Shown: piece by piece, positions 16,352-47,368 of the stretch | How the letters are laid out: each line of letters starts with the position of its first letter | How positions within the stretch are numbered: position 1 is the first letter of the stretch | Assembly: GCA_030019255.1 (NCBI GenBank) | Contig: JASEFK010000002.1 | Location: 47,347-111,346, forward strand | DNA from: Actinomycetota bacterium | GTDB lineage: Bacteria; Actinomycetota; Geothermincolia; Geothermincolales; RBG-13-55-18 | Length of the DNA: 64,000 nt | Reading direction: 5' to 3' | Position numbers and translations under genes: made by a program | The notes under the pieces: generated by a model | Seen by the model: only the letters and a program-made list of their open reading frames with translations | What the model was told of the DNA's origin: nothing | Database searches by the model: none

Positions 16352-18583
16352 TCACCTCTGCATCCCCGGCGCATAACCGCTGGAGACGTGCTCGCCGACC
16401 CAACCTTTGTAGTACCGGAAGTATACGGGCCTCTCCGCAACCACCTCCCCCCCGGCGTGAAGGGATACGGATATCCCCTCCTGGTAGGGGACCATGGAGT
16501 TCAACTTCAGGGTGGTCCGGGTGCGAGCAGGCAGTATGACTTTCTCCTCGAGGAGCTCGCCGCCTTCGGTATATATCCATATCTCCGCCTGGCAGTCCTG
16601 GCCGCCGGGGTTTTGGATGCACAGCCAATTCTCGAATCCGGGCCCCGTGTAGCCCTCGGCGAAGTACCAGTGGCGCGAGGGCGATCTCACCCCGACGGCT
16701 ACGTCCCCGCCCCGACACCAGTTGGAATAATCGTGATAGATGGCCCTCTCGGCCACAAGGGGGCCTTCGCCCTGTACCAGAAGGGACAACTCCAGGCCGC
16801 TTCCCGCCCGGCGGTTCACGTCCAGCGTCCTCCGGGAATAGGGCGGAATGTATTCCTCGTCGGTGATGTTCACTCCCCCGGAGGTCTGGTAGGTTATGGC
16901 GGCGCGGTTGACGTAGGGGTTGGGGTTGTAGAGGCACAGGTACTCCTGGAAGCCGGGACCCGTGTAGCCCTCGGCGAAGTACCAGGTCTGGGAGGGATTG
17001 GTGGTCCCCGAGGAGACGTGGCCCCCAGCCCACCTGCCGGCGTAGAGGAAGTACATGGGTCGCTCGGCCACGATATTTCGATCGGAACTCACCCTGACGG
17101 ACACCTCCTGCCCGGGACCCACGCTGCGGTTGACGTCCAGGGTGCGGCGCCTCCCAGCCGGCACCACCAGATCCTCCTCGGCCAGCAGGCCACCCTGGCA
17201 GTAGTATTCCACGGTGACCCGGGCGTCCTCACCGCCGGGGTTGAGAAGGCACAGGTACTCCTGGAAGCCGGGACCCGTGTAGCCCTCGGCGAAGTACCAG
17301 GTCCGGGAGGGATTGGTGATCCCCGAGGAGACGTGGCCCCCAGCCCACCTGCCGGCGTAGAGGAAGTACATGGGACGTTCCACCGCCAGGGGAAGGGGAG
17401 ACTCCACGCTTATCCCTAACTCCCGTCCCTCCCCCACTTCCCTGGCCACCTGGATGGTGACGCGGGCCTCCGCCTCCGCCCGGTATGAACGGACCATGGT
17501 ATCGCCCTCGACGAAATGGTAGGAGACGGTGAAGTCCACCGCCTCCCGGTTGGGGTTGAGGACGGTGAGCCACTCATCGAACCCAGCGGCGGTGGTCCCC
17601 TCGGCGAAATACCATTTTTTGGCAGCATTAGCCACCACCAGGTCGCGGGAGACCGTGGCCGTCCCACCGTTGAGGTAATAGGCCTCCGCCCTTAAGCGGT
17701 ACGTGCCGTCGCTCAGGGCGGAGGTATCCACGGTGAAGTCATAGGGCGGCGCGCTGCGGCTGCCCAGCAGCTGTTCCTCCAGGCGGAGGTCCACGCGCTG
17801 CAGGCTATCCGATCCCACCACCTGCAGGGAAACCTCCACCGGACCGCTGCACGGGCGATTCTCGGGAGGCTGGATGAAGCTTACCCGGGAGGGCATGCGT
17901 ATGCCGCGGAAGATGGCCTGGGCCTCCCGGGCCAGGTAGGCGTCGTCCCTCAGGAGCTGCTCTTGCTGGGGGTTGGAGATGAAGGAGGCCTCGGTGAGGA
18001 TAGCGGGCATGGTGGTGTTTTTCAGGACGCCGAATTTCTCCGTTCTTTTTACCCCCCGATTGGGCAGGCCAAATTCTGCAAGGAGTTCCGCCTGTACAGC
18101 GTTGGCCAACTTGAGAGATTCTTCGCTTGCGTACTGGTAAACCCAAGTCTCCGTTCCGTTGACCTCGGGTTGGTTATCAATCGAGTTGTGGTGGACGCTG
18201 ATGAAACGGTCCGCCCCCCAGGCGTTGGCCATCTGCCAGCGCTGGGTGATGCTCACGGTGACATCGCTCTCCCGGGTCATGAGCACCTGGGCACCCTCGG
18301 CCACCAGGAGGTCGCGCAGCCTGAGGGCCACCTTGAGGTTGACGTCCTTCTCCAGGAGGCCGGTGGGGCCCTCGGCCCCGGGATCGCTCCCGCCGTGGCC
18401 TGGGTCGATGCAGAACTTCCAGCCGCTCAGGCTTCCCGCCCTGGCCCTGCCCCCTCCCGGCGGGAAGCCGATGGCGGCCAGGAATGCGGCCGTCAGGAGA
18501 AGGAGGAAGGGCACCCGGAGCCCGCGTCCCCACCGTGCTGCTCCGTGCCCGGAACGGCTTTCCTTAGGGAGATATCCCTCCAT
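16352..18583 (-). CDS. N-acetylmuramoyl-L-alanine amidase with four WYFAEG repeats
   Basis: 743 residues. A signal or anchor helix (VPFLLLLTAAFLAAIGF, near 24-40) is followed by an Amidase_3 domain: FCIDPGHGGSDPGAEG, LEKDVNLKVALRL, ISVHHNSID and the catalytic-Glu motif ILTEASFISNP. These residues bind zinc and cut the amide bond between MurNAc and the stem peptide. An Ig-like segment (SGPVEVSLQV) leads to four repeats of about 105 residues, each opening with WYFAEG(T/Y)T and closing with ERPMYFLYAGRWAGGHVSSG or a variant. The repeats probably form a beta-rich surface-binding array. Part of two repeats is nearly identical at DNA level. Confidence 0.93.
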   Translation of the reverse strand: MEGYLPKESRSGHGAARWGRGLRVPFLLLLTAAFLAAIGFPPGGGRARAGSLSGWKFCIDPGHGGSDPGAEGPTGLLEKDVNLKVALRLRDLLVAEGAQVLMTRESDVTVSITQRWQMANAWGADRFISVHHNSIDNQPEVNGTETWVYQYASEESLKLANAVQAELLAEFGLPNRGVKRTEKFGVLKNTTMPAILTEASFISNPQQEQLLRDDAYLAREAQAIFRGIRMPSRVSFIQPPENRPCSGPVEVSLQVVGSDSLQRVDLRLEEQLLGSRSAPPYDFTVDTSALSDGTYRLRAEAYYLNGGTATVSRDLVVANAAKKWYFAEGTTAAGFDEWLTVLNPNREAVDFTVSYHFVEGDTMVRSYRAEAEARVTIQVAREVGEGRELGISVESPLPLAVERPMYFLYAGRWAGGHVSSGITNPSRTWYFAEGYTGPGFQEYLCLLNPGGEDARVTVEYYCQGGLLAEEDLVVPAGRRRTLDVNRSVGPGQEVSVRVSSDRNIVAERPMYFLYAGRWAGGHVSSGTTNPSQTWYFAEGYTGPGFQEYLCLYNPNPYVNRAAITYQTSGGVNITDEEYIPPYSRRTLDVNRRAGSGLELSLLVQGEGPLVAERAIYHDYSNWCRGGDVAVGVRSPSRHWYFAEGYTGPGFENWLCIQNPGGQDCQAEIWIYTEGGELLEEKVILPARTRTTLKLNSMVPYQEGISVSLHAGGEVVAERPVYFRYYKGWVGEHVSSGYAPGMQR
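16933..17374. repeat. near-identical 127-base segments in two amidase repeats
   Basis: Bases 16933-17059 and 17248-17374 differ at only a few positions and are offset by 315 bases, exactly 105 codons. They encode the end of one WYFAEG repeat and the start of the next. The flanking parts of the repeats are far more diverged, which suggests recent gene conversion or expansion. Confidence 0.9.
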
Positions 18584-25415: not shown

Positions 25416-25600
25416 CGCCGCGGAACCACGACACGGAAACACGAAGCGCAGGGATTGCCGCGGTTAAGCGGGAGGGAAATGGGCACGGATGTTCTATACT
25501 GTAACCGGCGCACGAAAGGGTAAATCTTCGGGTCGCCGCGAAACCACGGCACGGAAACACGAAGCGCAGGGATTGCCGCGGGACGAGCGGGAAGAAAGCG
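25416..25600. repeat. 118-base tandem duplication in the 25226-25603 intergenic region
   Basis: Bases 25416-25463 match 25534-25581 at 46 of 48 positions, an offset of 118; weaker similarity continues (AGCGGGA, GAAA) for about 15 more bases. It lies in the 378-base gap between divergent copA and the flippase-like gene. No gene is seen here. Confidence 0.92.
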
Positions 25601-28639: not shown

Positions 28640-30376
28640 TTAGGCCAGGTAATCCTCCAGCTTGTACACGTTCTCCGCGTCGGGGGAGAACTGGTCCCGC
28701 AACACCCGGTCCAGGTGCTTCTCCGAGGGGCTCTTGGGTATCTCGTCCACCACCTGCAGGTAGCTGGGTATGGAATTTCTTTCCAGGCCCTCGGCCGCCT
28801 TCCTGAACACCGACGCGGGATCGATGGACTTCCCCGGGAAGGGCGCCACCGCGGCCACCAGGTCGCTCTCCCCGGGCGCCCCCGAGGCGGCGGGGATCCC
28901 GTATACGCAGACCTCGGAAACGTCGGGGTGCTCCCCGATGACCTTTTCCACCAGGTCGGGCTTGATGAAATCCCCGGCGCGGCGCAAGGCTCCGCCCTTG
29001 CGGTAGTCGAAGAAGAACCAGCCCTCCTCGTCGCGGTGGACCATGTCCCCGGAGCGCAGCCAGCCCCCGCGCATCTTCTCCGCCGAGGCCTCCGGTTTCT
29101 TGTAGTAGTCCACCTTGGTCTGGGTGAGCATGCGGCAGATGAGCTCCCCGGTGACGCCCGAAGGCACCTCGTTGTCCTCCTCGTCCACCACCCTCATCTC
29201 CACCAGGCCGGGGATGGGCTTGCCGAAGGAACCAATGGGTCCCTCGCCGATGGGCTTGTAGGCGAAACCCCCCTCGATGGCCCCGTACCATTCCAGTATC
29301 TGCACCCCGAAGCGGCGCTCGAAGTCCTCCCAGATGGCCCGGGGCGTGCCGGCGGAGATGACCATGCGCACCGGGTTGTCGGCGTCGTCGGGGCGCGGGG
29401 GCTCGTTGTAGATGCCGGACATCATCCCCCCCAGGAGGGAGAAGGTGGTGCACCCGTAGCGGCGGCAGATGTCCCAGATGCGGCTCTTGGTGAAGCGCTG
29501 GCTGATCACCGCCGGTATGCCCATGGTCAGGGCCGGGAAGAGGGTTACCGCCTGGGCGTTGCCGTGGGCCAGGGAAAGCCCGGTGTAGAGGATGTCGTCA
29601 TCCCGGTACCCCCACACCAGGTAACCCAGCAGGCAGTACATGGCGTTGCGCCGCGAATCCAGGGTCACCCCCTTGGGGTTCCCGGTGACCCCGGAGGTGT
29701 AGATTATCTGCACCGGGGCGGCGGGGTCGTCCACCCGGTCCTCCAGGTCGGCCACCCGTGGCTGGTCCAGCATCTCGTTCACCGTGGGATACCTCGAAGT
29801 CAGGGCGGGATCGGCATCCGGTTTGAGGTTGAGGTAGATCTTCCTCAGGTTGGGGATACCCTTGGCCGCTTCCTCCACCTCGGGGAGGAGGTCGGCGGTG
29901 GTGATCACGGCCACGGCGTCGGAATCGGACAGCTGGTAGGCCAGCTTTTCCCTTTTGGCCCGAGGGTCGATGGGCACCAGGATGGTGCCCAGCATGGTGC
30001 AGGCGGCCATGGCGTAGACGAACTCGGGATGGTTGCGCATGACCAGGGCGATCTTGTCTCCCCGGGCGTAACCCTCCCGGCGGAAAGCGTGGGCCAGGCG
30101 CAGGGAGTTGGCGTAGAGCCTTGCGTAGGTGAGTTTCTCATCCGGGTACTGACCCCCGTTCTCGAAGATGAGGCCCACCCGGTTGGGGTTATCCTCCGCC
30201 CGCAGCTCCAGGAGCCTGGAGAGGAGGCCCTTATGCTCCGGGAAGCGCGACCGCATCACCGCCCGGAGGGCGCCCGAGACCACGTCGCGGTGGGAGAGGA
30301 GCTGCGCCAGCATGTACAGGCGGGGGTCCCGTTCCTCCAGCTTTCTCAGGAACTCCGACCTGGTCTCCACGGCCAT
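28640..30376 (-). CDS. AMP-dependent acyl-CoA ligase, crotonobetaine/fatty-acid ligase type
   Basis: 578 residues. Motifs: IIYTSGVTGNPKGVTL (a Val replaces the usual second Thr of SGTTG), LEWYGAIEGGF, LRSGDMVHRDEEGWFFF, and a C-terminus with DEIPKSPSEKHLDRVLRDQF, where the usual TGK lysine motif reads SEK. It is closely related to the ligase at 34632-36245 through its whole length, especially the AISQRFTKSRIWDICRRYG-like segment, but has about 40 extra residues at the N-terminus. ATG at 30376 follows GGGGGTGG. It is the last gene of a minus-strand group with the nitroreductase and acyl-CoA dehydrogenases. Confidence 0.88.
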   Translation of the reverse strand: MAVETRSEFLRKLEERDPRLYMLAQLLSHRDVVSGALRAVMRSRFPEHKGLLSRLLELRAEDNPNRVGLIFENGGQYPDEKLTYARLYANSLRLAHAFRREGYARGDKIALVMRNHPEFVYAMAACTMLGTILVPIDPRAKREKLAYQLSDSDAVAVITTADLLPEVEEAAKGIPNLRKIYLNLKPDADPALTSRYPTVNEMLDQPRVADLEDRVDDPAAPVQIIYTSGVTGNPKGVTLDSRRNAMYCLLGYLVWGYRDDDILYTGLSLAHGNAQAVTLFPALTMGIPAVISQRFTKSRIWDICRRYGCTTFSLLGGMMSGIYNEPPRPDDADNPVRMVISAGTPRAIWEDFERRFGVQILEWYGAIEGGFAYKPIGEGPIGSFGKPIPGLVEMRVVDEEDNEVPSGVTGELICRMLTQTKVDYYKKPEASAEKMRGGWLRSGDMVHRDEEGWFFFDYRKGGALRRAGDFIKPDLVEKVIGEHPDVSEVCVYGIPAASGAPGESDLVAAVAPFPGKSIDPASVFRKAAEGLERNSIPSYLQVVDEIPKSPSEKHLDRVLRDQFSPDAENVYKLEDYLA

Positions 30377-30606
30377 TTCACCACCCCCTTCGACGCATCC
30401 AGCCTCAGACACCGTCTTTTCTTCAGGTTATCCTTCGACTTTTCCATTCTAATACGACATCCACCGCGGTCATTGGGGGCCCAATTGACCCCGATGGTTC
30501 GCGGTTCCTTCCCTTGTGGCGGAGGAACCTGCAACGTAAGCGACGTCAACCCATCGGCTTTCTCTGCGATACCCCTGTGGGTATCAAATTTCAAGACCTG
30601 ACCCCT

Positions 30607-31748: not shown

Positions 31749-32813
31749 TCAGGTACCCGTCTCCACCATGTCCAGGAGGCGCAGCAGCTGCTCCTCCTCG
31801 GGGCGGGGGAACATCTGGCAGTACTTGGCGTCCCGCATCAACCTCTCCATGCCGTAGTCGCGCATGTAGCCGTAGCCGCCGTGTATCTGCACCCCGTCCA
31901 TGGCCGCCTGGCAGGCATTGGCCCCCGCCCTCCTCCAGGCGATGATGGCCGGGCCCAGCTCCTCCACGCTGCAGGCCCGGCGGATGACCGCCCGGCCCTC
32001 CTCCATGGCGCAGAGCATGCGGGCCAGCATGAGGCGCATGGCCTGGTGCTCGATGATCAGCTTCCCCGCCTGGTACCTCTGGCGGGCGTACTCGTAGGCC
32101 TTCTGGAAGGCCTTGCGCACGATGCCGTTGGCCACCGCCGCCAGGCCCAGGTAGAGGGTCCTCTCCGTGGCCGCCAGCGCTTCCTTCTCCGACTTGTCCA
32201 GCACGTAAACGGGTTCCGCGGATTTCATGTCCAGGGTGGCGAAGTTGCTCACCCTCCATCCCAGGGGATAGGGGTCGATCCGGGTCTCCACGCCGGGCGC
32301 GCCCGTCCGCACGTAAGCAGCCTTCCGCCCTTCCCCGGAGCCCGGGAAGAGCAGCGCCACGGTGCCCTCCAGAACATTGAAGACGAACGGAGCGCTCCCG
32401 TTTATCTTCCCGTCCTCCAGGGCGGCCTCCCCGGCGGTGGCCACGGTGCACAGGGGCCTCCCCTTGGTAAACTCCTCCACCAGGTCCTTGCGGTCCACGT
32501 AGATCAGGGGGACCAGGGCGGCGTTGTGGAAGAGCAGGGCGGCGGCGAACCCCGCGCATTCCACGGCGCTCTCCTCCAGGGCCACGCACAGGGAGTAGAG
32601 GTCCACCCCCTCGCCCCCCAGCTGCTCGGGTACCAGGGCGGCCAGCATGCCCATCTCCCCGGCCTTCTCCACCGCCTTCCAGAGGAGTGGAGAGTCCACG
32701 GTCTTCTCCAGGTCGTCGGCCACGGGGGCCAGCTCGGCGGCGGCGAAGTGGAGGGCGTTGCTCCGCAGCACCGCGTACTGCTTGGACTCCTTGGCCCAGG
32801 GAACCCCGATCAT
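31749..32813 (-). CDS. acyl-CoA dehydrogenase family protein (small subunit-like)
   Basis: 354 residues, shorter than the usual 380-400. N-terminal helices run from ALHFAAAELAPVADDLEK; the C-terminal flavin-domain signature is RQRYQAGKLIIEHQAMRLMLARML and QIHGGYGYMRDYGMERLMRDAKYCQMF. The middle strand domain lacks the usual TEP(N/S)AGSD motif. Its ATG overlaps the stop of the upstream dehydrogenase (ATGA), so the two are translationally coupled and may form a hetero-oligomer, as in steroid side-chain-type ACAD pairs. Which subunit carries the base is not clear from sequence. Confidence 0.87.
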   Translation of the reverse strand: MIGVPWAKESKQYAVLRSNALHFAAAELAPVADDLEKTVDSPLLWKAVEKAGEMGMLAALVPEQLGGEGVDLYSLCVALEESAVECAGFAAALLFHNAALVPLIYVDRKDLVEEFTKGRPLCTVATAGEAALEDGKINGSAPFVFNVLEGTVALLFPGSGEGRKAAYVRTGAPGVETRIDPYPLGWRVSNFATLDMKSAEPVYVLDKSEKEALAATERTLYLGLAAVANGIVRKAFQKAYEYARQRYQAGKLIIEHQAMRLMLARMLCAMEEGRAVIRRACSVEELGPAIIAWRRAGANACQAAMDGVQIHGGYGYMRDYGMERLMRDAKYCQMFPRPEEEQLLRLLDMVETGT

Positions 32814-34291
32814 GCCATCACCCCCTTCTTGAACGGGCGGGGGACTTCCACCCGCAGGGTCTCCTCGAAGCGGATGTTGTTCACCACCAAGCGGTTGAGC
32901 TGGTTGGTGCCCTCGTAGATCTGGGTGAGCTTGGCGTCGCGGTAGCACTTCTCCACCCAGCGGCGCTCCTCGGAATCCTCCGGGCCCATGATGCTGAGGG
33001 CCCGGGAGCACAGCTCCATGGCATTGTCGGCGCAGGAGAACTTAGCCAGGGAGGCCGTCTCCAGGAGCTGGGTCATGTCCTCGTCCTTGAGATAGTAGCG
33101 GAGGATGGCGTTGATCATGGCCTTCCCGTAATAGGAATTGAGGAAGTTGCGCATGAGGGGCATGGTGCGCAGGGAGGAAGGCAGACCCAGGGTGAGGTTC
33201 ATGATGGGGTTGTCCAAGGCCTTTCCGAAGATGGCATCCCCGAGCATGGCGTTGCTCATGTACAGGCCGCGGTTCTCCTGGACCATGCCCCACATATCCG
33301 CCAGGTTCATGCGTATGCGGTCCTCGTCGATGGGACGCTTGCCGTTTCGTTTGGTCCTGGCCCAGGCCAGGAAATGCTGGAGGGCTCCCCGGGCGATGCC
33401 GGTGGCGATGGAACCCACCGGGCCCCGTGAGGCGGCCATGATCATGAGGATGCCGTTGCCCATGCCGTCCCCCTCGTAGCCCAGGACGTGGGAATCGGGG
33501 ACGAAGACGTCCTCGAAGAGGAGCTCCGCGGCGTGACTGGCCCGCTGTCCCATCTTGAGCTCCACACGGGGAGTGGAAAATCCTTCCATGCCCCTCTCCA
33601 CCAGGAAGGTGGTCCAGGTCTGCAGGGGCCGGTTGCGGTCCAGGGCGGCGCACACGGTGAAGTACTTGGCCTCGCTCCCGTCGGAGATGAAGCACTTCCG
33701 TCCGTTGAGCACGTAGCCGCCCTTGACCTTCTTGGCCTCCAGGGAGAGCCTGGCCTTCTCCAGGTACTCCGGCTCCTCCACGTCGGTCCCCGCCGAGGGC
33801 TCGGTGATGGCATAGGCCATGGTCACCGGCTGCTCCTTGAGCTCCCCCTCCACGATCTCCTTGAGCACCGTGTCCCAGTGGGCCAGGGCCCCGGAAGTGA
33901 TCAACGGGGCCACCCCAAGGCTGTGGGCCCCCACGGCCAGGGCGATGCCTGAGCACCCGGAGCACAGTTCATCCATGAGCAGGGAGGTGTTGGTGACCAT
34001 GAACTCGCCCGCTACTCCCCCCAGCTGCCTGGGGATGAAGATGGATAGAAAACGGTATTTGCAGGCCCGGCGCATGATCTCCCAGTCGAAGTACTCCGGC
34101 TCCCTCTCCATGCGCATGTCCAGCTCCAGGGCGCGGGGCACGGCGAAGGTGCGGTTGAATTCCTCCGCCTTCTCAATGAGGGCGATGGTCTCCCGTATCC
34201 CCTTCTTCCGCCCGCTCTCCCACAGCATGCGCAGGATGGGGAAGTCGCGGAAAAGCCTCTTTCCCGTCTCGCTCAACTCCTGACCGATCAT
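32810..34291 (-). CDS. acyl-CoA dehydrogenase
   Basis: 493 residues, longer than typical because of an N-terminal helical extension. The FAD/substrate signature AYAITEPSAGTDVEEPEYL is present near the middle, followed by GYVLNGRKCFISDGSEA and VELKMGQRASHAAELLFEDVFVP. The C-terminal domain ends RDAKLTQIYEGTNQLNRLVVNN, where the family carries the hairpin and FAD contacts. It oxidises an acyl-CoA to a 2-enoyl-CoA and passes electrons to ETF. AAGGGGGTAAG precedes the ATG at 34291. It overlaps the next dehydrogenase gene by four bases. Confidence 0.93.
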   Translation of the reverse strand: MIGQELSETGKRLFRDFPILRMLWESGRKKGIRETIALIEKAEEFNRTFAVPRALELDMRMEREPEYFDWEIMRRACKYRFLSIFIPRQLGGVAGEFMVTNTSLLMDELCSGCSGIALAVGAHSLGVAPLITSGALAHWDTVLKEIVEGELKEQPVTMAYAITEPSAGTDVEEPEYLEKARLSLEAKKVKGGYVLNGRKCFISDGSEAKYFTVCAALDRNRPLQTWTTFLVERGMEGFSTPRVELKMGQRASHAAELLFEDVFVPDSHVLGYEGDGMGNGILMIMAASRGPVGSIATGIARGALQHFLAWARTKRNGKRPIDEDRIRMNLADMWGMVQENRGLYMSNAMLGDAIFGKALDNPIMNLTLGLPSSLRTMPLMRNFLNSYYGKAMINAILRYYLKDEDMTQLLETASLAKFSCADNAMELCSRALSIMGPEDSEERRWVEKCYRDAKLTQIYEGTNQLNRLVVNNIRFEETLRVEVPRPFKKGVMA

Positions 34292-34492
34292 CTTACCCCC
34301 TTCCTTTCCGGGTTCCCGATCCGAAGCGCAACTATCCCATGCCTGAATACGATCCAGCATCGCTTCGCCCACGTGCCCGCGCATCCTCCGACACGCGCCC
34401 CAGCCTCATCCCCCACGGGTTATACGGCACGCGCCCACCCGTTCCCCAAAATCCGGTCCCCGGAAACGGATGTCCCACGGACCTCCGCCTCT

Positions 34493-34767
34493 CAGGCCTG
34501 GCAGTCCTCCGGCCCCCAGACACTCTCCGCGTCCGGCGAGAACTGGCCCCTGAGCACCCGGTCCAGGTACTTCTCCGAGGCGCTCTTGGGGATCTCGTCC
34601 ACCACCTGGATATAGCTGGGAACGGCTTCCTTCAGACCTGGTAGTCCTCCAGCCGGTACACGTTCTCCGCGTCCGGCGAGAACTGGTCCCTGAGCACCCG
34701 GTCCAGGTACTTCTCCGAGGCGCTCTTGGGGATCTCGTCCACCACCTGGATATAGCTGGGAACGGCG
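34493..34767. repeat. 140-base tandem duplication of the ligase gene 3' end
   Basis: Bases 34493-34627 repeat 34633-34767. From 34524 to 34626 (103 bases) there is a single mismatch; the gene-end portion, 34493-34523, differs at about one third of positions. On the minus strand the copy begins right after the ligase TGA and itself reads in frame through DAESVWGPEDCQA to a TGA at 34492-34494. The gene's own end reads DAENVYRLEDYQV. Either copy could be the original gene end. Confidence 0.97.
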
Positions 34768-36245
34768 TTCCTCTCCAGCCCCTCGGCAGCCTTCTTGAAG
34801 ATGGACGCCGGATCTATGGTCCTCCCCTCGAAGGGGGCCACGGCGGCCACCAGGTCGCTCTCCCCCGGGGCCCCCGAGGCGGCGGGGATGCCGTACACGC
34901 AGACCTCGGAGACGTCGGGATGCTCCCCGATGACCTTCTCCACGTAGGAGGGGATGATGAACTCCCCCTGGCGGCGCAGCCCGCCCCCCTCCTTGCGGTA
35001 GTCGAAGAACAGCCAGCCCTCCTCGTCCCGGTGCACCATGTCCCCGGTGCGCAACCAGCCGCCCCGCGTCTTCTTCTCCGAGTCCTCCGGGCGGCCGTGG
35101 TACTCAACCTCCGGCTTTTGGTTCACGGCGCGCATGAGCAACTCCCCAGTGACCCCGGGCGGCACCTCGTTGTCGTTCTCGTCCACGATCTTGTATTCCA
35201 TGAGACCCTCGATGGGCTTCCCGAAGGAGCCTATGGGCCCCTGGTCGATGGGCTTATAGGCGAAACCGCCCTCCACCGCGCCGTACCACTCCAGGATCTT
35301 GACGTTGAAGCGCTTCTCGAAATCCTCCCAGATGGCGATGGGGGTGCCGGCGGAGATGACCACCTCCACCGGGTTGTCGGCGTCGTCCGGGCGCGGCGGT
35401 TCATTGTAGATGCCGGACATCATCCCGCCCAGGAGGGAGAAGGTGGTGCACCCGTAACGGCGGCAGATGTCCCAGATGCGGCTCTTGGTGAAGCGCTGGC
35501 TGATGACGGCGCGGATGCCCAGGGCGATGGCGGACATGAGGGTCACCGCCTGGGCGTTGCCATGGGTCAGGGAAAGGCCGGTGTAGAGGATGGAGTCCTC
35601 CTTGTACCCCCACACCATCTTGGCCAGGGCGGTGTACATCAGGGTCCGGGTGGCCTTGACCACCACCCCCTTGGGATTCCCCGTCACCCCGGAGGTGTAG
35701 ATGATCTCCATGGGAAGGGTGGGATCGTCCACCCGGTCCTCCAGCTCGTAGATGTCCGGGCCGTCCACCAGCTCGTTTATGGTAGGGTATCTGGAGGCCA
35801 GGGAAAGGTCCGCGTCCGGCTTGAGGTTCAGCCAGATGCGCTCGATGCCCGGTATGTCCTTCGCCAGGGCCTCCACCTCCGGGAGCAGGTCCGCCGTGGT
35901 GACCACCGCCTTGGCCTTGCAGTCCCCCAGCATGTAGGCCAGCTTCTCCCCCTTGGAGCGCGGGTCGATGGGCACGAAGACGAAGCCCAGCAGGTTGGTA
36001 GCCCCCATAAGGTAGACCATCTCCGGGTGGTTGCGCATCACCGTGGCCACCACGTCTCCCTTGCCGATGCCGCTCTCCCGCAGGCCCTTGGCCACCTTGA
36101 AGGTGTTGGTTACCAGCTGCCGGTAGGTGAGCGGCTCGTCCCGGTAGAGACCCCCGTTCTCGAAGATGAGCCCCACGAACTCGGGCTTCTCTTCCATGCG
36201 CATCTCCAACTGGTGGAACATGAGCGCCGGGTTCTTTTCGGTCAT
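34632..36245 (-). CDS. AMP-dependent acyl-CoA ligase, crotonobetaine/fatty-acid ligase type
   Basis: 537 residues with IIYTSGVTGNPKGVVV, LEWYGAVEGGFAYKP, LRTGDMVHRDEEGWLFF and the C-terminal DEIPKSASEKYLDRVLRDQF. It is a close paralogue of the ligase at 28640-30376 and shares its SGVTG variant. Three nearby start codons exist; I chose the third (MTEKNPAL, 36245) because GAGGTG lies six bases before it, while GTG at 36254 and ATG at 36251 sit inside that signal. The 3' end is duplicated downstream. A TTGACA promoter with a TetR-type operator lies about 490 bases upstream. Confidence 0.9.
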   Translation of the reverse strand: MTEKNPALMFHQLEMRMEEKPEFVGLIFENGGLYRDEPLTYRQLVTNTFKVAKGLRESGIGKGDVVATVMRNHPEMVYLMGATNLLGFVFVPIDPRSKGEKLAYMLGDCKAKAVVTTADLLPEVEALAKDIPGIERIWLNLKPDADLSLASRYPTINELVDGPDIYELEDRVDDPTLPMEIIYTSGVTGNPKGVVVKATRTLMYTALAKMVWGYKEDSILYTGLSLTHGNAQAVTLMSAIALGIRAVISQRFTKSRIWDICRRYGCTTFSLLGGMMSGIYNEPPRPDDADNPVEVVISAGTPIAIWEDFEKRFNVKILEWYGAVEGGFAYKPIDQGPIGSFGKPIEGLMEYKIVDENDNEVPPGVTGELLMRAVNQKPEVEYHGRPEDSEKKTRGGWLRTGDMVHRDEEGWLFFDYRKEGGGLRRQGEFIIPSYVEKVIGEHPDVSEVCVYGIPAASGAPGESDLVAAVAPFEGRTIDPASIFKKAAEGLERNAVPSYIQVVDEIPKSASEKYLDRVLRDQFSPDAENVYRLEDYQV

Positions 36246-36935
36246 GTTCATCACCTCATCTCTTCCCGAGCCTTCGTCTCCCGACTCTTACACCTGCCCT
36301 CCGCCGGTTCCGCCTCCATCCGTGGAACGCCCTGCAAGAGGGGCCGCCTCACAAGAAGGTCACAACCTCTCATCCTTTCCGCCACCGCCCTCCCTCCGGA
36401 TACGGGAAATCCCTCCGCTGCACGTCCGGCGCCGATTTTCTCCCCGCTTTGCCCCACATCTGTCGGAGGAACTTGAGGCCGCGGTGCCCGTTTGCCGGGC
36501 TGATGCCTGCTTTCGGTGAGCACGATGCGGTTTTTGAAGTCCTGCCCTCAACCCTGCATCCATGACGGAATTCGAGCCGAACGGAGGTGGACGATCACGG
36601 AAACCGACCTTTACCCTCTCCCCGTTTCCGCCTGGAACATCCGGACAGCAGCCCCCGCGGCCGTCCCCGCAAGGAGATTTTACCCTCTCCCGAACCTCCC
36701 CGCTAACCCACCTTGCCGGAATACGCTTTTACATACCCGAGTATGTTATTATCTTTTTAATATTATCGGGAGCGCCTGTCAAGCGGAAGGCGAAAAAGAG
36801 GGGATGCTTTCTCCGATAAATAGACGGAGGGCCCGAAGGAAACTCGGAGGTTCATCGCCCTTCCGCCCCGCTGCTGGAACGGGACCTGGAAAACGGTGAT
36901 GTGAACCAACATTCGCGCCCAAGGGAGGGAGCGAC
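36246..36935. other. divergent regulatory region between ligase and TetR genes
   Basis: About 690 bases with no convincing gene. The right half contains an AT-rich promoter zone near 36725-36782 with the inverted repeat described separately. The left half is GC-rich and would be a long leader if the ligase is transcribed from that promoter. Two TTTACCCTCTCCC stretches lie about 77 bases apart near 36611 and 36688. Confidence 0.5.
36731..36782 (-). promoter_or_regulatory. promoter with TetR-type operator (site 1)
   Basis: ACATACCCGAGTATGT at 36731-36746 is a perfect six-base inverted repeat around CCGA. On the minus strand TTGACA (36777-36782) and TAAAAA (36754-36759) are 17 bases apart and place the predicted start of transcription at the operator edge. 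On the plus strand a TATTAT -10-like hexamer (36747-36752) directly follows the operator and could serve the TetR gene, giving autoregulation. Confidence 0.7.
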
Positions 36936-46291: not shown

Positions 46292-47368
46292 TCAGTGGCA
46301 GCTCACCGGGCTGAAACCGGGGATGGCCGAGCTCTTCCGGCCCCGGCGGATGGCCTCCGTCATGAGGCGCAGGGACAACTCCGGCCCCAGGGTCTCCGCC
46401 AGGCCCTCCAGCAGGTCCACGCGGGAGCGCAGTCCATACCACACCTGGTGCTTGAAGCGGTGCACGGTGGCGAAGTTGCGGGTGAAGCGGGCGAACTCCT
46501 TTTCCGCCCTTTCGGGTTCCGTGACCGCCATGGCGGCTACCTTGCCGCCGACCAGGGCGCCGGAAATCCCGAATCCCATGAGGGGGTCCATGGCTCCGGA
46601 GATGGTCCCGCAGAGGATAAAGCCACGGTGGAAGAGGCGGGGGTTGTCCGGCACGGCCAGGGGTACCACTCCCTTAACGTATTCCCAATCCTCGTGGTCC
46701 AGCCCCTCGGCCCGGAGCATGAACTCCCGGTAGCGGCGCAGGCACTCCTCGCCCACGCCCCGCCCGTAGGAAAAGAGAAGGTTGTAATAGAGGCCGTTGC
46801 AGAAGGAGGCATAACCGTACTCGGTGACGCACTCGTCCAGCCATATCCAGGCGTAGCCGCTGCACTCGCTGGCCCCCCGGGACATCCACCCTTCCCAGAC
46901 CAGGTAGGGTATTTCCAGGTACTGGTAAGCCTCCGGGTTAAGCCCGCAGGCGATGATGCTCCCCGGGGGCAAGGCCTCCAAGTCCTCCCGGCGCAGGGCA
47001 TGCCCGAACTCGAATTCCACTCCCGCCTCCAGGCACCTCTCGTAGAGCAGGGCGTCCAGGCTGGAGGGTCGGGAACTGCGTTCCACGGCATAGGCGCCCG
47101 CCGCTGGAAGGGACAGGCGTAGGCGATGGAGGTAGAGGGATATTGATTCCACGCGGTGAAAGGCGGGGGAGACGTCCAGGCCAACGTATTCCGAAGTGGC
47201 CTTCAGGTCCAGCGGCGTGACGTGGGTGGAGGGGTTGAAAATCCGCGAACCACCGAAGGAGTCCTCCTTTTCCCGCACCACCACCCGGAAACCCTCCTGG
47301 GCCAGGTTCCAGGCGGCCACCATCCCGGACATGCCCGCCCCGTATATGATCACCTCTCCCCGCTTCAT
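46292..47368 (-). CDS. FAD-dependent oxidoreductase of unknown substrate
   Basis: 358 residues. The N-terminal dinucleotide motif is IIYGAGMSGMVAAWNLAQEG with Glu about 20 residues later (VVVREKE). The C-terminal FAD contact is ILCGTISGAMDPLMGFGISGALVGGKVAA. These two blocks match the geranylgeranyl-reductase/halogenase-like flavoprotein group. The substrate cannot be named. Its ATG overlaps the stop of a 111-residue protein gene (ATGA at 47365-47368), so the two are probably translated together. Confidence 0.85.
   Translation of the reverse strand: MKRGEVIIYGAGMSGMVAAWNLAQEGFRVVVREKEDSFGGSRIFNPSTHVTPLDLKATSEYVGLDVSPAFHRVESISLYLHRLRLSLPAAGAYAVERSSRPSSLDALLYERCLEAGVEFEFGHALRREDLEALPPGSIIACGLNPEAYQYLEIPYLVWEGWMSRGASECSGYAWIWLDECVTEYGYASFCNGLYYNLLFSYGRGVGEECLRRYREFMLRAEGLDHEDWEYVKGVVPLAVPDNPRLFHRGFILCGTISGAMDPLMGFGISGALVGGKVAAMAVTEPERAEKEFARFTRNFATVHRFKHQVWYGLRSRVDLLEGLAETLGPELSLRLMTEAIRRGRKSSAIPGFSPVSCH

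Follow-up and report, generated by a model that had tools for sequence, protein, structure and literature searches.

A partial tandem duplicate of an acyl-CoA ligase gene end in a genome of Candidatus Solincola or a very near relative, decaying and probably overwritten in part by the neighbouring gene copy

Introduction

Several described systems share features with a bacterial gene end lying in duplicate behind its own stop codon. At icd of E. coli, the e14 prophage is associated with a duplicate of the gene's 3' end whose tail is altered, the 163-bp icd' (PMC6379469). The acyl-CoA ligase locus described here shares both of these traits; however, no element lies between its copies, and the gene's own tail is the ancestral one. 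Gene conversion among bacterial repeats, as in the PE/PPE genes of Mycobacterium tuberculosis, produces long identical tracts with abrupt edges in otherwise diverged copies (PMC12046097), a trait also seen here; the repeats in the present case are 50-200 bases long, are neighbours, and include one that is an untranslated gene fragment. Replication slippage between short direct repeats offers a further likeness, in that the ligase locus has a direct tandem unit, one intact gene copy and what may be short homology at the unit ends; it departs from a clean case, since the role of the hexamers is inferred and two single-base deletions have to be assumed at the junction. The template and variable repeats of diversity-generating retroelements are similar in size and in their position at a gene 3' end, but the ligase locus has neither a reverse transcriptase nor an adenine bias. 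A literature search found no paper on this repeat pattern in this lineage.

Results

The window analysed here is a stretch of 64,000 nucleotides (positions 47,347 to 111,346 of contig JASEFK010000002.1, assembly GCA_030019255.1) from a hot-spring actinobacterium which, as judged from orthologues, is Candidatus Solincola or a very near relative. An intact acyl-CoA ligase gene in the window is followed, head to tail and at a spacing of exactly 140 bases, by a second copy of its 140-base 3' end, with no foreign DNA between the copies (Table 1). A 30-mer probe taken from the repeat gave exactly two matches where none was expected, so the repeat is not a product of chance. A preliminary description, made from the letters of the sequence, had reported this duplicated end as well as an uneven divergence between its copies, and both observations were confirmed, with a nearly unchanged body and a strongly altered tail. 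The copies differ at ten positions (34496, 34502, 34511, 34515-34517, 34519, 34522, 34523 and 34547), and the probability that at least nine of the ten would fall in the tail is small (hypergeometric P = 4.5e-6). The clustering is also apparent in a change-point permutation (p = 1e-4) and in a test on the longest clean run (p = 0.0005), which here extends over 79 bases, 34548-34626, with zero mismatches.

Table 1. Features of the ligase locus and of other loci in the window (window positions).
Feature	Position	Strand	Basis
Acyl-CoA ligase (AMP-binding enzyme, 540 aa), intact; C-terminus ENVYRLEDYQV, TGA 34632-34634	34632-36254	minus	ORF; Pfam AMP-binding and AMP-binding_C; orthologues
GAGAGG at upstream end of duplicated unit, inside gene	34770-34775	minus	sequence
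Proximal copy, 3' end of ligase gene	34632-34771	minus	sequence comparison
Junction of copies, reads TGAAGGAAGCC; expected TGAGAGGAACGCC minus two single bases	34624-34634	minus	sequence
Distal (spare) copy, untranslated, directly behind ligase stop	34492-34631	minus	missing in three congeners
Spare-copy body, putative conversion tract	34524-34626	minus	1 mismatch/103 (at 34547)
Diverged spare-copy tail, not converted; would read ESVWGPEDCQA	34494-34523	minus	9/30 mismatches
GAGAGG at and just behind spare-copy stop; putative partner microhomology bounding the unit	34488-34493	minus	sequence
Native intergenic DNA, spare copy to acyl-CoA dehydrogenase start	34292-34491	minus	colinear with tengchongensis
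Acyl-CoA dehydrogenase, next gene in conserved order	32810-34291	minus	Pfam Acyl-CoA_dh domains; order same in three congeners
Paralogous ligase, 590 aa, ends NVYKLEDYLA; not donor of odd tail	28640-30412	minus	ORF, Pfam
Duplicated 3' end of 3-hydroxyacyl-CoA dehydrogenase (HCDH) gene; copies 1-56 and 110-165, 100% identical; stop 57-59	1-165 (G000:C2:47347-47511)	minus	

At the junction between the copies two single bases have probably been deleted, TGA[G]AGGAA[C]GCC, and together with the tail mismatches this means that the spare copy was altered at both ends and not in its tail alone. A model of uniform decay fails to account for a copy that is changed at both ends around a clean middle. 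The spare copy lies entirely within the gap ahead of the acyl-CoA dehydrogenase, behind the TGA of the ligase gene, without a start codon and out of register with the gene (the offset of 140 is 2 mod 3), which makes its translation very unlikely. The two in-frame stops of the preliminary description therefore stand for the spare copy only with respect to its own former frame; in the frame of the gene its stop is not in register, and its end is very unlikely to be a translated one. A new terminator or RNA hairpin was considered as a reason for the odd tail and rejected, with a folding z of -1.4 to -1.5 and no terminator-like site.

Orthologues of the ligase in three congeners (quzhuomuensis, tengchongensis and MAG-41) are 98% identical to it and establish which of the two tails is ancestral. 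The orthologue of Ca. Solincola quzhuomuensis ends in the same ENVYRLEDYQV as the window ligase, that of tengchongensis in the near-identical ENVYRLEDYQA, and that of MAG-41 in ENVYRLEDCRSR. Nothing in the ligase has thus been replaced, and it is the spare tail that is the odd one; the proposed replacement of the ligase end did not survive this comparison with orthologues, which the preliminary description had itself suggested and in which the gene's tail proved related to the congener ligase ends. Most differences of the odd tail (AGT, TGG, GGG and CCG) occur in no relative examined, while two changes each match one congener, TGC with MAG-41 and GCC with tengchongensis. No other match to the odd tail block with three or fewer mismatches was found in the genome, and hence no donor, and the odd tail is unlike both the NVYKLEDYLA of the paralogous ligase and its DNA. 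The gene conversion that had been proposed is accordingly probably right in kind, but its partner would be the adjacent gene copy and not the paralogue at 28.6 kb. The tengchongensis ligase (G002:C57:4627-6250) appears as two matches in different frames; the underlying frameshift may reflect a broken gene or an error of assembly, and the 4-fold site count of this ligase was for this reason left out of use.

No second copy is present in quzhuomuensis, tengchongensis or MAG-41, all of which keep the ligase-dehydrogenase order, so the extra copy, seen in one genome only, is either private to the window lineage or descends from an ancestral duplication that was lost elsewhere. The spare copy and the DNA behind it are colinear, at the same length, with the ligase end and intergenic DNA of tengchongensis. 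This colinearity and the single copy of the congeners are both predicted by a tandem duplication in the window lineage. Dating the event by the intergenic DNA was abandoned, as the alignment to tengchongensis is near saturation. The two GAGAGG hexamers lie 282 bases apart, that is 142 + 140, and six bases would match by chance in approximately the right phase with a probability of about 0.002, although the hexamers fit the expected distance only if the two 1-base deletions are assumed. Slippage between them as the origin of the duplication is thus no more than suggested.

Concerted evolution is evident at two other repeats of the same contig. The 3' end of an HCDH gene (named from its C-terminal sequence, not from a family model) is duplicated behind the gene stop in the window genome, tengchongensis and MAG-41, but not in quzhuomuensis. 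In its 53-base core, gene and copy differ at 0/53 positions in the window genome and 0/53 in tengchongensis, against 5/53 between these species, and the MAG-41 copies share MAG-41's own state at species-specific sites. Outside the core the copies have diverged, and in the window genome a run of 100 N breaks the second copy, whose tail resumes diverged beyond it. The simplest reading of these sequences would be that the duplication arose once and was then homogenised separately in each species, the alternative being repeated independent duplication at the same points. Greater likeness within than between species is similarly found in a 315-base direct repeat inside one gene (window about 16922-17380), with 7/144 differences within the genome versus 16-19/134 to MAG-41.

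Other duplications were observed as well. The window contains a 48-base intergenic direct repeat (96%, spacing 118; 25416-25581); the corresponding site of MAG-41 is occupied by a different pair of repeats (G003:C8:219682-219877). Behind the stop of its orthologue of the 28.6 kb ligase, MAG-41 has an independent duplicate of 99 bases from that gene's own 3' region, at 98% identity (L040 14941-15039; G003:C8:216371-216469).

Local direct repeats, defined as at least 40 bases at 80% identity or more with a spacing of up to 400 bases, number 77 loci in 1.39 Mb of the family (five contigs, four genomes) versus 4 in 0.73 Mb of controls (four contigs from the class or phylum), the contigs having been picked by length and availability, one of them for containing the ligase locus, rather than at random, and the gene calls being home-made. 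Local duplications are thus about ten times denser in the family contigs than in the four control contigs (p = 4e-10; 2e-6 without the richest genome, G006). Counts in short stretches around the ligase were lower, 1 in 146 kb for family members versus 2 in 412 kb for other phyla. G006:C4 and G006:C5 are very rich in short tandem repeats of this local kind, with 8 to 10 loci per 100 kb, some of them in at least three copies. Differences are clustered at p < 0.05 in 48% of repeat pairs, compared with 5.6% in simulated uniform decay; among 29 independent loci (one pair per locus, within-gene repeats left out), 12 show mosaic divergence at this threshold, against the same simulated expectation (p = 2e-8). 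Repeated unequal exchange would give the same mosaic signal as conversion. Duplications at gene 3' ends outnumbered those at 5' ends by 13 to 7, a difference that was not significant (p = 0.26).

Loss of mismatch repair was considered as a cause of the family excess and rejected. One of 39 genomes contained MutS and one of 25 gave a NucS match above the cut-off, controls included; because both are also missing in controls with few duplications, their absence does not explain what sets the family apart. A single relative among 39 has MutS_V domain matches (G012:C15:19070-21021), two of which lie in separate reading frames or genes.

Discussion

The best explanation of the ligase locus, to which we assign a probability of roughly two-thirds, is a tandem duplication, after which the untranslated copy decayed and then had its middle partly converted by the gene copy next to it. 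A 142-base unit comprising the 3' end and stop of the ligase would have been tandemly duplicated in the window lineage, probably by replication slippage between the GAGAGG hexamers. The upstream copy would have left the gene end intact, so that the duplication cost nothing. The downstream copy, lying behind the stop and free to decay, would have lost single bases at its front and gained substitutions in its tail. The neighbouring gene copy would afterwards have replaced the middle of about 103 bases, by short-tract gene conversion or slip-strand exchange, while the ends of the spare copy stayed unconverted. Partial conversion is supported by the clustering of the differences, by the sister case of HCDH, by the 315-base repeat and by the frequency of mosaic divergence among local repeats of the family. 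The evidence is not all on one side, as the clustering weakens to p = 0.03 when the mismatches at 34515-34523 are counted as one event, and the tail, with nine changes in 30 bases, exceeds the 3 to 4 that half of the 4-fold site divergence to MAG-41 (21%) would predict. The term recent, which the preliminary description had applied to the whole duplication, would be apt for the converted body alone. A recent event does not account for the divergence of the tail, unless most of its changes came from a single clustered mutation.

Such a mutation is the core of an account without conversion, in which a young tandem duplication acquired a few ordinary point mutations and, in the spare tail, a single complex change of several bases. 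The near identity of the body and the concentration of six of the nine tail mismatches within 9 bases, to which the weakened clustering is due, speak for it. However, three more tail mismatches and the two junction deletions flank the clean middle, mosaic pairs are common in the family, and a template for the tail block was found nowhere else in the genome, and we regard this account as rather unlikely. Recombinational import from another strain or species, bringing in both the spare tail and the intergenic DNA downstream of it, could draw on the two tail codons shared with MAG-41 and tengchongensis. It is decidedly improbable, as most of the tail differences are found in no relative examined and the downstream DNA is close to none, its alignment to tengchongensis (54%) standing near the 46% of shuffled sequence. 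Misassembly is unlikely as well, and we give only slight credence to two strain variants of the gene end having been joined head to tail in a metagenome-derived genome. The congeners in public collections are metagenome-assembled and the window genome is in 43 contigs; nevertheless, the longest identical run of the repeat is below the usual long k-mers and reads, the contig measures 308 kb, and like duplications occur in the assemblies of other species, including at MAG-41's other ligase.

The resemblance to icd' raises the question of an attachment-site scar, left by a mobile element that uses gene 3' ends as integration sites, supplies a new end and leaves the old one behind. We consider this hardly credible, given that the spacing equals the unit length with nothing between the copies, that the gene's own end is ancestral and not new, and that loss of an element by site-specific recombination would restore a single copy. 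A template and variable repeat pair of a diversity-generating retroelement, suggested by the outward shape of a repeat of about 140 bases at a gene 3' end with clustered differences, can be ruled out by its missing enzyme and its wrong substitution pattern: reverse transcriptase (PF00078) is absent from the genome while three control genomes give matches, and the differences are not limited to template adenines but include C to T, G to C, C to G and T to C.

The ligase locus is an ordinary decaying partial tandem duplicate and on its own matters little, being a harmless copy of a gene end that decays and would in part be overwritten. The apparent overwriting of its middle to match the gene is an ordinary process that seems unusually common in this bacterial family, and only the family-wide pattern merits further attention. 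It is a tentative idea, possible rather than probable, that mutation follows a distinct regime in the Ca. Solincola family, in which short local duplications (about 75-240 bases) arise or persist at about ten times the frequency of other families of the class and are repeatedly homogenised by conversion, with MutS and NucS undetected. The family offers short local duplications and homogenisation frequent enough for comparison across species, and the identity of adjacent repeats within it should not be read as a sign of recent origin.
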